Below, piece after piece: positions 7,090 through 11,398 of a stretch of DNA of 42,489 nt. The notes beneath the pieces were generated by a model, which had not been told where the DNA came from, did not search any database, and worked only from the letters and a program-made list of their open reading frames with translations. Positions within the stretch are counted from its first letter, which is position 1, and each line of letters opens with the position of its first letter. The stretch comes from Clostridiales bacterium (GTDB lineage Bacteria; Bacillota; Clostridia; Lachnospirales; Lachnospiraceae): the NCBI GenBank assembly GCA_023663185.1, contig JAMPHY010000001.1, positions 1-42,489 of the forward strand, read 5' to 3'. Position numbers and translations under genes: made by a program.

Positions 7090-7260
7090 TTAACCCTGTG
7101 AAATAGCGCCGGTCGGGCAGGTTCCTGCACAAGAACCGCAATCAATACATTTATCAGGATCAATTTCAAATTTGCCGTCTCCCATACTGATTGCCCCTAC
7201 AGGACACTGTGCCTCGCAAGCTCCACATGCTACGCAGGCGTCTCCAATTACATATGCCAT
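7090..7260 (-). CDS. 2[4Fe-4S] ferredoxin
   Basis: A 56-aa clostridial-type ferredoxin. It has two complete cluster motifs: C9-x2-C12-x2-C15-x3-C19-P and C38-x2-C41-x2-C44-x3-C48-P, with the usual internal symmetry. It should carry low-potential electrons, for example for hydrogenases, Rnf or radical-SAM enzymes. A strong binding site (AAGGAGGG, 7268-7275 on the minus strand) precedes the ATG. A good promoter lies just upstream, so it can be transcribed independently of the pfl genes, although the location next to pflA suggests a shared anaerobic role. Confidence 0.93.
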   Translation of the reverse strand: MAYVIGDACVACGACEAQCPVGAISMGDGKFEIDPDKCIDCGSCAGTCPTGAISQG

Positions 7261-7469: not shown

Positions 7470-8222
7470 CTATTGTTCCGCGCGGCGTTTGCGTATGCCT
7501 TCAAGGATCACTTCCTTCTTAGCAAGCAAGTCCTTCTTTTCCATCGCGGGTACTCCCTTTAGTTTATACTCGATACCGAGCTTTTTATATTTGCTCTCGC
7601 CCATAGTGTGATAGGGCAGCGCGTCTAATGCTTTAAGATTCTTGAACTGACCTATAAAATATCCAAGTTGATATAAATACTTATCATCATCGGTTAAGCC
7701 GGGAACGATTACATGGCGAATCCACATATCGACATTCTTCTCGTCCAAATATTTAGCAAAAGCGAGAATGCCGTCATTGGGCTGCGAAGTAAGTTCCTTG
7801 TGCTTTTCAGGATCAATATGCTTGATATCAAGCATTACAAGGTCTGTTAAAGTCATTAATTTATCAAGCTTTGCAAGCCATTCTGGATTAGCATTAGGTT
7901 TATAAGCTATACCGGAAGAGTCGATACAGGTATGAATACCTTTCTGTTTGGCAAGAGTGAAGAGGTCAAGAAGAAAATCGACCTGCATTAGCGGTTCTCC
8001 GCCGGTCACGGTGATACCGCCACCCTTGTAGAAGCTGATATTTCTTTCGTATTGTTCGATTATATATGCCGGTTCCATTAAGGTGCCGGAGTTCATTTCC
8101 CATGTGTCCGGATTATGACAATAAGCGCACCGCATAGGGCAGCCCTGAACAAAGACGACAAATCTGACGCCGGGACCATCTACTGTACCAAAACTTTCTA
8201 ATGAGTGAATTCTACCCTGCAT
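7470..8222 (-). CDS. pflA: Pyruvate formate-lyase activating enzyme
   Basis: Radical-SAM enzyme that installs the glycyl radical on pyruvate formate-lyase. The 250-aa product has the cluster motif C28-x3-C32-x2-C35 (GCPMRCAYC), the GGEP motif of the SAM site and the typical N-terminus HSLESFGTVDGPGVRF. I take ATG 8222, which has AAGAAAGGA at 8231-8239; the in-frame TTG at 8226-8228 would be only 2 nt from it. The gene is downstream of the split PFL genes but separated from them by two hairpins, so it may be expressed at a lower level. Its target glycine is on the separate 80-aa protein at 8336-8578. Confidence 0.95.
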   Translation of the reverse strand: MQGRIHSLESFGTVDGPGVRFVVFVQGCPMRCAYCHNPDTWEMNSGTLMEPAYIIEQYERNISFYKGGGITVTGGEPLMQVDFLLDLFTLAKQKGIHTCIDSSGIAYKPNANPEWLAKLDKLMTLTDLVMLDIKHIDPEKHKELTSQPNDGILAFAKYLDEKNVDMWIRHVIVPGLTDDDKYLYQLGYFIGQFKNLKALDALPYHTMGESKYKKLGIEYKLKGVPAMEKKDLLAKKEVILEGIRKRRAEQ

Positions 8223-8250
8223 ACTCAAATTCCTTTCTTATATAAATGTA

Positions 8251-8284
8251 CAGAACCTTGAAATTGCTTCCAAGGTTCTGTTTT
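8251..8284. terminator. Hairpin between the glycyl-radical subunit gene and pflA
   Basis: Perfect 10-bp inverted repeat CAGAACCTTG (8251-8260) / CAAGGTTCTG (8271-8280). The T run follows on the plus strand only, so on the minus strand it may be a partial terminator or an RNA-processing or stability hairpin lowering pflA output. Confidence 0.5.
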
Positions 8285-8335: not shown

Positions 8336-8578
8336 TTAGATACTTTCATGGAAAGTACGAGAGATAACATCTGCCTGCTGTTCCGGTGTCAGTTTGATGA
8401 AGTTTACTGCATATCCGGAAACGCGGATTGTAAGCTGAGGATAATTCTCAGGATGCTTCTGAGCGTCCAATAAAGTATCTCTGTTTAATACGTTTACGTT
8501 AAGGTGGTGTCCGCCTTTTGTTGCATAACCATCTAATAATGATACAAGGTTATCTACCTGTGCTGTGTTTGTTGCCAT
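8336..8578 (-). CDS. Free-standing glycyl-radical subunit of pyruvate formate-lyase
   Basis: An 80-aa protein that matches the C-terminal glycyl-radical domain of pyruvate formate-lyase along its length, including HLNVNV (25-30), [15 protein letters not shown] (46-60) and the C-terminal RTFHES. G55 in RVSGY is the residue that becomes the glycyl radical. YfiD/GrcA proteins have the same fold and repair oxygen-cleaved PFL. Here, however, the neighbouring PFL core lacks this domain, so the protein is probably an obligate subunit rather than a spare part. It has its own strong binding site (AAGGAGG, 8587-8593). Confidence 0.9.
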
Positions 8579-8611
8579 GTTAAATTCCTCCTTATATTAA
8601 TAACTATAATT

Positions 8612-8647
8612 ATTATACTATATCCATAACGCTTTCGCGCCATGCAA
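8612..8647 (-). promoter_or_regulatory. Possible internal promoter before the glycyl-radical subunit gene
   Basis: On the minus strand a consensus -10 TATAAT (8612-8617) lies upstream of the 80-aa gene. The best -35-like hexamer, TTGCAT (8642-8647), is 24 nt away, too far; an alternative -10 TATAGT (8617-8622) gives 19 nt. Weak candidate that could supply extra glycyl-radical subunit. Confidence 0.3.
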
Positions 8648-8653
8648 AAGAGC

Positions 8654-8857
8654 TTAATGAAAATCGTCTAACCCCTGTTCCAGAGTCGGTACGCTGCAGG
8701 CAAGAGGGGTTCTGGAGCAATCCGTACATCCCATAGTCTGCACATCTTTAGAATTATTGGACTTCTCATCAACATTGACATTCACGTGTCCGACGCCCTG
8801 CGCCATACCGGAATCCAACATTTTAACAAAGTCGTCAATCATCTGCTTTTCATCCAT
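8654..8857 (-). CDS. Small Cys-containing protein resembling the start of the PFL glycyl-radical domain
   Basis: A 67-aa protein encoded between the PFL core and the glycyl-radical subunit. Residues 7-29 align without gaps to residues 8-30 of the 80-aa radical subunit, with 10 of 23 identical, including LD and HxNVNV. After that the two diverge: instead of the YPQL and RVSGY segments this protein has C44-x2-C47-x6-C54 (GCTDCSRTPLAC) and an acidic tail, and it has no radical glycine. Start ATG 8857 has GGAGGG 6 nt upstream. I do not recognise a named family. A mimic that occupies the radical-domain socket of the core, or a redox or metal-binding accessory subunit, is inference. Confidence 0.8.
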   Translation of the reverse strand: MDEKQMIDDFVKMLDSGMAQGVGHVNVNVDEKSNNSKDVQTMGCTDCSRTPLACSVPTLEQGLDDFH

Positions 8858-8897
8858 TATAATCCCTCCATTCTGCAATATATGCTCTTTTGTCTTT

Positions 8898-10937
8898 TTA
8901 TTTGCTAAGATCTACCTCGATATCTCCTGCGAATACCTGATCTTCTTTACCAAGAGCGCCCGGAATGATGGTAAATGTATTAGAAATACCGTCCTGAGCA
9001 TCCTTGAATGGAAGCTTAGATACTGAAGATAAGGAAGCTACTGCACCGTGGGTATCACGTCCATGCATCGGGTTAGCGCCCGGAGCAAACGGCTGTCCTT
9101 TTCTACGTCCGTCAGGAGTATTACCTGTAGCCTTTCCATAAGTTACGTTAGACGTAATTGTAAGGATAGAGGTTGTAGGAACACCGTTTCTGTAGGTATG
9201 ATGTCTTCTGATAGCAGTCATGAATTTATGAACTACTTCCTGCGCGATAGAGTCTACGCGGTCATCATCATTACCATATTTCGGGAAGTCGCCGGTTGTC
9301 TTGAAGTCAACGATAATGCCGTCTTCATCTCTAATCGGCTCAACCTTAGCATATTTGATTGCTGATAATGAGTCAGCTACGATGGACAGACCTGCAACGC
9401 CTGTTGCGAAGTAACGCTTAACGTCTCTGTCATGAAGAGCCATTTCTGCTCTCTCGTAGCAGTATTTATCGTGCATATAGTGGATAATGTTCAGAGTATT
9501 TACATATACGTCTGCCTGCCACTCCATCATATCCATGAATTTGTCATATACGTCATCATAGTCAAGTACGTCGCCGACAACAGCACGATACTTAGGACCA
9601 ACCTGTTTCTTGGTAACTTCGTCAACACCGCCGTTTAATGCGTATAACAGACATTTAGCAAGGTTAGCACGAGCGCCGAAGAACTGCATTTCTTTACCAA
9701 TTACCATTGAAGATACGCAGCATGCAATACCATAATCGTCGCCATGTGTAACTCTCATAAGGTCATCATTCTCATACTGGATAGAAGAGGTCTGGATAGA
9801 CATCTTAGCGCAGTATTTCTTCCAGTTTTCAGGAAGTCTGGTAGACCATAATACTGTCAGGTTAGGCTCCGGAGAAGGTCCGAGGTTAGTAAGTGTGTGC
9901 AGATAACGGAAGCTCATCTTAGTTACTAACGGACGTCCGTCAACGCCAACACCACCCAGAGATTCAGTTACCCATACAGGATCGCCTGCAAAAATCTGAT
10001 TGTATTCAGGTGTACGTGCGAATTTGATGCAGCGCAGCTTCATAATGAAGTGGTCAACAAATTCCTGAATTTCTTCTTCTGTAAATGTTCCGTTAGCTAA
10101 ATCTCTTTCTGCATAGCAGTCAAGGAATGTAGAAGTACGTCCGAGGGACATAGCAGCTCCGTTCTGCTCTTTTACTGCACAGAGATAACCGAAGTAAGTA
10201 GCCTGAATAGCTTCCTGAACATTTGATGCCGGCTTAGAAATATCGCAGCCGTAAGAAGCAGCCATTTCTTTCATCATCTTAAGAGCTACCATCTGCTCTG
10301 AAATCTCTTCACGAAGACGGATTACATCGTCTGTCATAACACGTCCGGTAGAATCCTTCTGAGCCTGTTTGTCTTCAATCAGATAATCGATACCATACAG
10401 TGCTACACGTCTGTAATCGCCAATGATACGGCCACGACCGTAAGCATCAGGAAGACCTGTGATGATATGGGAAGAACGACAAGCTCTCATTTCCTGATTG
10501 TAAGCATCGAAACAGCCTGCGTTGTGTGTTTTTCTGTGTGTGGAGAAGAACTCGCTGATTTCAGGATCAACTTCATATCCGTTATCGGAGCATGCCTTCT
10601 CTGCCATTCTGATACCGCCGTAAGGCTGGAGTGAACGCTTGAAAGGTTTGTCTGTCTGGAAACCAACAATTTTCTCTTTGCTCTTGTCCAGATAACCGGG
10701 ACCGTGAGATGTGATTGTGGATACAACCTTAGTATCCATATCAAGTACGCCGCCGGCTTCACGCTCTTGCTTCTGTAAATCAAGAACCTGTGCCCATAAG
10801 TCTTTTGTGTTCTGTGTAGGCTCAGCTAAGAATGACTCATCGCCATCATACGGATGATAATTTCTCTGAATGAAGTCGCGCACATTAACTTCACTGTCCC
10901 ATTTGCCGCCTACAAAATCTTTCCATTCTGGTCTCAT
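8898..10937 (-). CDS. pflB: Pyruvate formate-lyase catalytic core lacking the glycyl-radical domain
   Basis: Converts pyruvate and CoA to acetyl-CoA and formate. The 679-aa product follows E. coli PflB from the N-terminus ([19 protein letters not shown]) through the active-site pair C406-C407 (IACCVS) to [20 protein letters not shown]. It then stops at a genuine TAA (8898-8900), where usual PFLs of about 740-760 aa continue for some 70 residues into the glycyl-radical domain. That domain is encoded separately at 8336-8578. Start ATG 10937 is supported by AGGAGG at 10948-10953 and by conserved RPEWKDF; the longer in-frame extension to 10985 has no such support. It is the first gene of the operon behind a near-consensus promoter. 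Confidence 0.93.
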
Positions 10938-11017: not shown

Positions 11018-11046
11018 ATTATATTTAAAAGATGGAGCCTAGTCAA
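11018..11046 (-). promoter_or_regulatory. Promoter of the pfl operon
   Basis: On the minus strand TTGACT (11041-11046), exactly 17 nt, TATAAT (11018-11023). This is the strongest-looking promoter in the window and gives a leader of about 75 nt before pflB. Confidence 0.8.
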
Positions 11047-11158: not shown

Positions 11159-11190
11159 ATATAAAAATTCAGATATACTATATAAAAAAT
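11147..11190 (+). repeat. Two abutting 22-bp imperfect direct repeats
   Basis: Unit 1 is 11147-11168 and unit 2 is 11169-11190. Both read TCAGAT, then TATACTATATAAAAA, differing by a one-base shift in T and A runs. The duplication copies the -10 element TATACT and lies directly before the SD of the DUF1858 gene. Confidence 0.7.
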
Positions 11191-11206
11191 GCGGAGGTAT
11201 AAAATT

Positions 11207-11398
11207 ATGGCAGAGATTACTAAGGAAATGACAATCGGCGAAATTTTAAGGGTTAATCCTGATGTTGCGCCTGTTTTAATGAACGCAGGAATGCACTGTT
11301 TAGGCTGCCCTTCAGCACAGGGAGAGTCGTTAGAGGAAGCGGCTATGGTGCATGGAATGGACATTGATGATTTGATGGCAAAAATTGAGGCGCTCTAA
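11207..11398 (+). CDS. DUF1858 domain protein
   Basis: A 63-aa protein consisting of a single DUF1858 domain: [21 protein letters not shown] followed by a C31-x2-C34 pair ([17 protein letters not shown]). Such domains appear alone or next to redox and Fe-S proteins in anaerobes; their function is not settled. The CxxC pair could bind metal or do thiol chemistry. The ATG at 11207 has GGAGGT at 11193-11198. It diverges from the pfl operon across a shared promoter region, which suggests co-regulation with anaerobic metabolism but does not prove it. Confidence 0.8.

Follow-up and report, generated by a model that had tools for sequence, protein, structure and literature searches.

Among the main fermentation enzymes of gut bacteria is pyruvate formate-lyase (PFL), which oxygen cleaves at its radical glycine. 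In ordinary PFL this glycine is carried on the C-terminal domain, next to the catalytic cysteines. Most glycyl radical enzymes, PFL included, are single-chain homodimers, and further accessory subunits of these enzymes may still await discovery, according to the available part of a 2025 paper (PMC12590467). Here we describe a locus from a Clostridiales bacterium of the family Lachnospiraceae (GenBank assembly GCA_023663185.1, contig JAMPHY010000001.1, positions 1 to 42,489, referred to as the window), in which the PFL core and the glycyl-radical domain, GrcA3, are encoded by separate genes with a small third gene between them. The locus represents a real, widespread and lineage-restricted variant of PFL that, on comparative grounds, works with high probability as a multi-chain enzyme.

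Comparison with known systems

In Escherichia coli, a full-length PflB is accompanied by GrcA (YfiD), a spare radical domain; to our knowledge, E. coli has no third gene of the kind described below. The E. coli system and the present locus share a radical domain provided in trans, the RVSGY motif, the same kind of activase, and the same pair of cysteines. They differ in that PflB is full length, whereas the core here never has a radical domain, and in that YfiD has 127 amino acids with a disordered N-terminal half, whereas GrcA3 has 80 amino acids and no such half. As far as the available parts of the two studies go, an E. coli PflB G734A strain yields formate in vivo when GrcA is present (PMC12338860), and residues 1-695 of E. 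coli PFL (tPFL) combined with residues 61-127 of YfiD (truncYfiD) reach normal activity once activated (PMC8683613). This engineered pair has its break at nearly the same place as the present locus and shows, once activated, the two-chain function envisaged here; however, it is artificial and binds poorly, whereas the natural loci nearly all have a third protein or a cysteine-bearing tail.

The beta and gamma subunits of benzylsuccinate synthase (BSS) are likewise small extra subunits of a glycyl radical enzyme. They bind [4Fe-4S] clusters, whereas the third protein has two to three cysteines and resembles a radical domain. In the available part of PMC12590467, BSS beta is described as touching the radical domain and influencing the formation of thiyl radicals. 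No description of a natural split PFL, of GrcA3 or of the third protein was recognised in the open-access literature, whose long result lists were viewed in part, and nothing on a natural split PFL was found in the available parts of PMC13252398 and PMC11528403. What is already established is the family name GrcA3 for the 80-residue protein.

Structure of the split PFL locus

The PFL core (8898..10937, minus strand) is a protein of 679 amino acids that starts with ATG at 10937 behind the Shine-Dalgarno (SD) sequence AGGAGG and ends with TAA at 8898. It matches the PFL profile TIGR01255 with 1096 bits against a cut-off of 994.2; the match covers positions 2-665 of 744 and stops there, so that no glycyl-radical domain is found in the same chain. 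The radical subunit GrcA3 (8336..8578, minus strand, 80 amino acids) has its own SD sequence, AAGGAGG, and the motif R52-V-S-G55-Y. It belongs to the GrcA3 family (NF038360, 161.3 bits against a cut-off of 158) and falls below the profile of the GrcA/YfiD spare part (TIGR04365, 100.6 bits against a cut-off of 170). In an initial annotation made from the sequence alone, a core ending at a TAA before the radical domain and a separate 80-residue radical gene with its own SD sequence and RVSGY (G55), 319 nt away, had been described, and the coordinates and the motif agree with this description. The 319 nt between the core stop and GrcA3 hold the third gene ('mid', 8654..8857, minus strand), which has its own SD sequence, GGAGGG, and encodes 67 amino acids with a radical-domain-like N-terminal half and a cysteine-bearing tail.

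The split is borne out by alignment with E. coli PflB (PDB code: 1h16). The core aligns up to its own residue 669, corresponding to chain residue 681, and residues 8-79 of GrcA3 align to residues 682-758; the two alignments are therefore complementary, with about 10 C-terminal residues of the core and the first 7 of GrcA3 left unaligned. Counted from the alignment offsets, Cys406-Cys407 of the core are E. coli C418-C419, and G55 of GrcA3 is E. coli G734. The cysteine pair is kept in all 43 split and all 44 full-length rows of the alignment. Judged by its profile match, its catalytic cysteines and the nearby activase, the core is a member of the PFL family that departs from it in the single-chain feature.

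The initial annotation had named two findings that would undo its reading, a sequencing error and an inactive core with a second, full-length PFL doing the work. Since the frame of the core holds many stops downstream of its own, the core and GrcA3 do not form one frame interrupted by a single stop. Together with the recurrence of the same layout in 45 of 120 genomes of the family and in the cores of all 80 closest relatives (see below), these stops rule out a frameshift or an assembly error. The only match to PF02901 in the host genome, which is 94.8% complete, is the 679-residue core. Three matches to Gly_radical were found there; two are the halves of the PFL locus, and the third, on contig 2, reads from its own sequence, rather than by a profile, as a class III ribonucleotide reductase. 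Therefore, no second full-length PFL was found by PF02901 and Gly_radical searches of this genome, and the full-length enzyme that a YfiD-type spare part would rescue is not seen in it.

Distribution of the split PFL

The family was sampled with 120 genomes, nearly all of different genera. A split core is present in 45 of them (43 intact; two, in G060 and G022, cut by contig ends, counted as split and omitted from the trees), and GrcA3 lies just downstream of the core in 45/45. By row count, a full-length PFL is present in 48 of the 120 genomes; these hold 50 such proteins, of which 48 were fetched and those of G023 and G079 were left out, and the fragmented PFLs of G034, G045, and G089 were left unclassed. 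A full-length PFL accompanies the split enzyme in only two of the 45 split genomes (G085 and G119), and the other 43 show none. If this reading is correct, a natural multi-chain PFL would occur in 45 of the 120 genomes that sample this large gut family.

The closest relatives were taken as the best 80 of 586 matches in public genomes, with cores 93-98% identical, and thus represent near relatives only. They are Lachnospiraceae records, for example Parablautia muri and Parablautia intestinalis. All 80 cores lack the radical domain, and GrcA3 is a separate open reading frame (ORF) in 78 and lies past the contig end in two. The ratios of nonsynonymous to synonymous substitution (dN/dS) across the 80 loci are 0.037 for the core, 0.051 for GrcA3, and about 0.06 for the third gene; these values, from 400 random pairs, are rough since synonymous sites are near saturation.

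It might be argued that GrcA3 serves as a spare, as its E. coli counterpart does, with the real PFL full length elsewhere and the core a relic. The NCBIfam name of NF038360, 'autonomous glycyl radical cofactor', and the two split genomes that also have a full-length PFL would fit such a scheme. However, there is no other PF02901 match in the host genome, 43 of the 45 split genomes show no full-length PFL, the core is under strong purifying selection as judged by its dN/dS, and the core and the radical domain have apparently been joined again in some relatives (see below), which together make this scheme highly improbable. In contrast to its name, GrcA3 is the sole PFL-type radical domain seen in 43/45 split genomes, and genome annotation is affected in that a radical subunit is currently labelled as an autonomous cofactor.

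Beyond the family, a standalone GrcA3 was found in 53 of 295 genomes of the order, in the four families f1, f8, f11, and f22 (row count), and in a sample of 398 genomes of the phylum only two were found, both in the family of the window. The cut-off of these searches was strict (1e-38), and weaker relatives would escape it.

In two PDB entries named 'Formate acetyltransferase', 38lb and 38la, the PFL core likewise comes without a radical domain. The chain of 38lb ends in a cysteine-bearing tail, PDCACAADASAKEGCEDN. When 397 family genomes were searched with it, the best matches, at no more than 75% identity, were to cores whose open frames are short and of the split type. The chain of 38la ends at LGKED, which is either its natural end or that of the construct. 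No GrcA3-type chain alongside 38la or 38lb was found in a search of the PDB. At least one laboratory probably already has a split-type core in hand.

Evolution of the split

Two phylogenetic trees were constructed by a quick method, with support from the Shimodaira-Hasegawa-like approximate likelihood ratio test (SH-aLRT) only and with midpoint rooting. The first tree covers 91 core regions and unites all 43 split rows with four full-length rows in one clade (SH-aLRT 99). The second tree, built with 21 of the 48 family rows fetched, also takes in 10 split loci of three further families, together with 18 full-length rows drawn from the order and the phylum; it gives the corresponding clade of 57 rows, 53 of them split, again with SH-aLRT 99. 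On both trees the split or full-length state needs three changes. Comparison thus shows a single origin of the split within the order, and apparently, though less firmly, two later re-fusions, one in locus L099 and one in the trio L100-L102. Several independent origins of the split are contradicted by both trees.

By the approximately unbiased (AU) test, a split-only clade without the four full-length rows was rejected (p-AU 0.023, log-likelihood 67.7 lower). The radical domains of the four re-fused PFLs score 151.5-161.9 bits to GrcA3, and that of the next full-length PFL scores 141.0; their likeness to GrcA3 is in line with re-fusion. In L099 the single chain consists of the core, then CGCEEVTC, then a GrcA3-like domain. 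Some caution about the re-fusions is called for, as the AU test reaches a moderate level for a group that was named only after inspection of the tree, and support for the fork of L099 is 96 and 94 in the first and second tree, respectively.

Gene fusion in relatives is classical evidence that two products cooperate. The single origin of the split and the two re-fusions are therefore good evidence that the core and GrcA3 form one enzyme. Assembly from separate chains appears to be needed since the host genome has one PF02901 match, 43/45 split genomes show no full-length PFL, and re-fusion has apparently taken place twice. Overall, this PFL is very probably an obligate multi-chain enzyme with GrcA3 as its normal radical subunit, a grading that does not extend to exchange of the subunit; complex formation between the chains is inferred from the comparison of sequences. 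In this respect, the two-chain assembly proposed in the initial annotation is upheld as to the need for separate chains, whereas its count of the parts overlooked the third gene. If the multi-chain reading is true, it would show that radical domains can serve normal metabolism as exchangeable subunits, beyond a role in repair.

Cys376 of the core was considered as a split-specific partner of the cysteine arm described below. It is present in 43/43 split rows and 8/44 full-length rows; since it is also present in 4/4 re-fused rows, it is a marker of the clade.

The third gene and the cysteine-bearing tail of the core

By hhalign, residues 1-34 of the third protein show homology to the N-terminal part of GrcA3 (probability 95.9, E 6e-9, 34 columns), and this radical-domain-like half lacks the glycine loop. 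The NCBIfam GrcA3 profile matches 25/27 third proteins, all far below the cut-off. The C-terminal half has two to three cysteines in a motif such as GCTDCSRTPLACSVPTL. Profile and PDB searches gave no Pfam or NCBIfam family of its own and no PDB match for the third protein. The gene is kept in all 80 closest relatives, and its dN/dS (rough, as stated above), together with the closure of the other frames in 80/80, argues that it is not a chance ORF.

Among the 45 split genomes, the third gene lies between the core and GrcA3 in 28 and is unlinked in one (G002). The remaining 16 have no third gene, and their core ends in a tail with at least two cysteines. Thus, one or the other form is present in 45/45 split genomes. 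The last 30 residues of the core contain at least two cysteines in 16/16 tail cores and none in the other 27/27, which makes the third gene and the cysteine tail mutually exclusive. Strong matches to the third gene were found in 30 of the 120 genomes, 29 of them split and the other one G006, which is 67% complete and in which no PFL was seen. The third gene was not found in the four re-fused genomes, two of which (G074 and G011) are 86-88% complete. GrcA3 is free of cysteine in 44/45.

The cysteine-bearing segments of the two forms, hereafter the arm, share the motif [ASP]C.[IVT]P[NTI] in 25/27 third proteins and 7/16 core tails; an example is the tail of L053 with CGDMACKVPTLHKGID and, in the closely related L049, a third protein with CNNNMACSVPTLHKDID. 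In the first tree the gene and tail forms interchange, with eight parsimony changes for either label, of which at least two to three are forced by well-supported branches. Among the 10 split loci from other families, eight have the third gene, one (L239) has the tail, and one (L234) has neither.

A common descent and a common role of the arms are made less certain by several observations. The other 9/16 tails merely bear cysteines (e.g. CACCEPN) and are not clearly alike, and the number and spacing of cysteines vary across the arms. The third proteins of G012 (L055) and G026 (L061) stop after the first cysteine pair (GCTDCAK and GCTTCSQ) and are without the ACSVPTL part, and the tail-class cores have no mimic of the radical domain. 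In addition, L234 comes from a genome that is 99% complete (G303) and has neither the third gene nor the tail; therefore, the arm is not strictly required.

Two copies of the third gene are not near PFL: that at G006:C13:12160-12345 (in L240) has a CheC-like gene as its neighbour, and that at G002:C64:103694-103885 (in L241) a MoxR-type AAA gene. In eight further small proteins of 64-94 amino acids (L242-L249), the N-terminal half gives a weak match to the third protein (E 1e-6 to 6e-4). They are encoded at G100:C7, G060:C56, G060:C117, G112:C40, G116:C6, G031:C9, G002:C29, and G080:C18; six contain YHHGRCD[VI]GSP, and L244 and L247 end in ECCNMYGR and KCCNVYGK, respectively. Their neighbours are mixed, and no glycyl radical enzyme was recognised by eye in those stretches. 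Neither L243 nor L246 belongs to an NCBIfam family, and L243 has no Pfam family either.

Proposed mechanism of the multi-chain enzyme

The most likely working of the enzyme can be described as follows. The 679-residue core, which keeps the Cys-Cys pair and stops just before the radical domain, would bear the sites for the substrate and coenzyme A. GrcA3 would dock where the C-terminal domain of an ordinary PFL lies, as the usual and mostly sole radical subunit rather than a spare. PflA, the activating enzyme, would load the radical onto G55 of GrcA3, from which it would pass to the cysteine pair of the core, and a GrcA3 cleaved by oxygen would be replaced by a fresh one. Such a swap of the radical subunit after oxygen damage, as proposed in the initial annotation, is plausible, since E. 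coli PFL works in vitro and in vivo with a radical domain in trans and six genomes have a second, unlinked GrcA3, in three of them near a Crp/Fnr-type regulator. The split PFL would make the docking, loading, and replacement of radical domains testable.

In the absence of GrcA3, the radical-domain groove would lie empty, and it may be there that the arm helps, either as the tail of the core or as a part of the third protein, which would bind the groove by its radical-domain-like N-terminal half. The arm could keep the catalytic cysteine pair reduced, or plug the site, until GrcA3 displaces it. We tentatively suggest that the arm guards the open active site, because it is the common part of both forms and accompanies a separate radical subunit, because it is lost or reduced to a linker upon re-fusion, and because GrcA3 itself is nearly always free of cysteine. 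In the available part of PMC8683613, residues 696-733 of the cleaved E. coli enzyme are needed for YfiD binding; since the region to which the N-terminal half of the third protein shows homology overlaps these residues, the third protein may occupy the radical groove. One may go further and consider a three-part enzyme, in which the third protein is a radical-domain decoy that fills the empty groove, its mobile cysteine arm keeping the exposed catalytic pair reduced until fresh GrcA3 displaces the decoy; such an enzyme would have a built-in stand-by state, and the arm would have shifted between the core tail and a separate protein during evolution. This extended scheme is conceivable, though we hold it to be rather unlikely. 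The third protein is a candidate for a factor that handles a radical enzyme in the absence of its radical part.

AlphaFold2 models of the core with the third protein, and of the core with the third protein and GrcA3, have a mean predicted local distance difference test (pLDDT) of 38.9 and 41.8, respectively, most likely owing to shallow alignments, and speak neither for nor against docking. A result that does not favour these proposals is that, for the E. coli core cut at residue 695, binding of YfiD was too weak to measure and activation was poor, as given in the available part of PMC8683613; since such a core binds YfiD poorly, the split core would need some compensation.

The third protein and the cysteine tail might instead be docking aids, which would recognise GrcA3 (or PflA) and help loading, much as residues 696-733 of the cleaved E. 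coli enzyme assist YfiD. The homology of the N-terminal half to the start of the radical domain, overlapping the E. coli recognition element (PMC8683613, available part), fits this role, as does the restriction of strong third-gene matches, G006 excepted, to genomes with a separate radical subunit. However, the 16 core tails have cysteines only, so the mimic is not the part common to both forms, and we regard a docking function as somewhat unlikely. Alternatively, the arm may quench or store the radical, a thiol giving its hydrogen atom to the glycyl radical of GrcA3 and thus switching the enzyme off before oxygen cuts it. Nearly every split locus does place a cysteine arm next to the radical subunit, and BSS beta promotes inactivation of the catalyst, potentially via radical quenching (PMC12590467, available part); however, GrcA3 and the third protein would be rivals for one groove, which leaves a quencher improbable. 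Binding of a metal (Zn or Fe-S) by the arm, as in accessory subunits of other glycyl radical enzymes, would suit the two to three cysteines per protein and a size near that of the 7-10 kDa subunits (PMC12590467, available part). However, the spacing of the cysteines is variable, and no four-cysteine set, such as a [4Fe-4S] cluster would use, is found in the 27 third proteins, which all have two to three cysteines, or in the 16 tails. Therefore, a metal site is very improbable and the least likely of these three alternatives to a guard.

Additional copies of GrcA3 and neighbouring genes

A second GrcA3 unlinked to PFL is present in six split genomes, at L092 (G080:C21), L094 (G041:C33), L095 (G112:C18), L096 (G064:C61), L097 (G031:C17), and L098 (G042:C178). 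In L092, L095, and L098 it is preceded on its own strand by a Crp/Fnr-type regulator, which suggests a reserve under redox control. One more second copy, the seventh, is located at the edge of a contig and is followed by PflA. Other short radical-domain ORFs, of 85-93 amino acids and 69-74 bits to GrcA3 (G038:C45:15031, G110:C17:37624, G015:C118:65340, and G111:C2:59720), are perhaps spares for other glycyl radical enzymes.

In the window, pflA (7470..8228, minus strand) encodes the radical S-adenosylmethionine enzyme that activates PFL (TIGR02493, 295 bits against a cut-off of 231.75). A promoter-like site, TTGACT-17-TATAAT, lies upstream of the core (11018..11046, minus strand); it is a consensus match only, at 11/12 positions, and the region has 10 such sites against 10.6 expected in shuffles. 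A terminator-like stem of 14 pairs between GrcA3 and pflA (8250..8281, minus strand), likewise a consensus match only, is the longest of eight in the region, against 2.8 stems expected in shuffles. Since the promoter-like site stands 5' of the core and the stem follows GrcA3, the core, the third gene, and GrcA3 look like one transcription unit. After pflA, a 56-residue ferredoxin with two [4Fe-4S] clusters (NF058577) is encoded at 7090-7260 on the minus strand and might supply the activase with electrons. A gene at 11189-11398 on the plus strand, divergent from the PFL operon, encodes a 69-residue hybrid-cluster-protein-associated redox disulfide domain protein (TIGR03980 / DUF1858).

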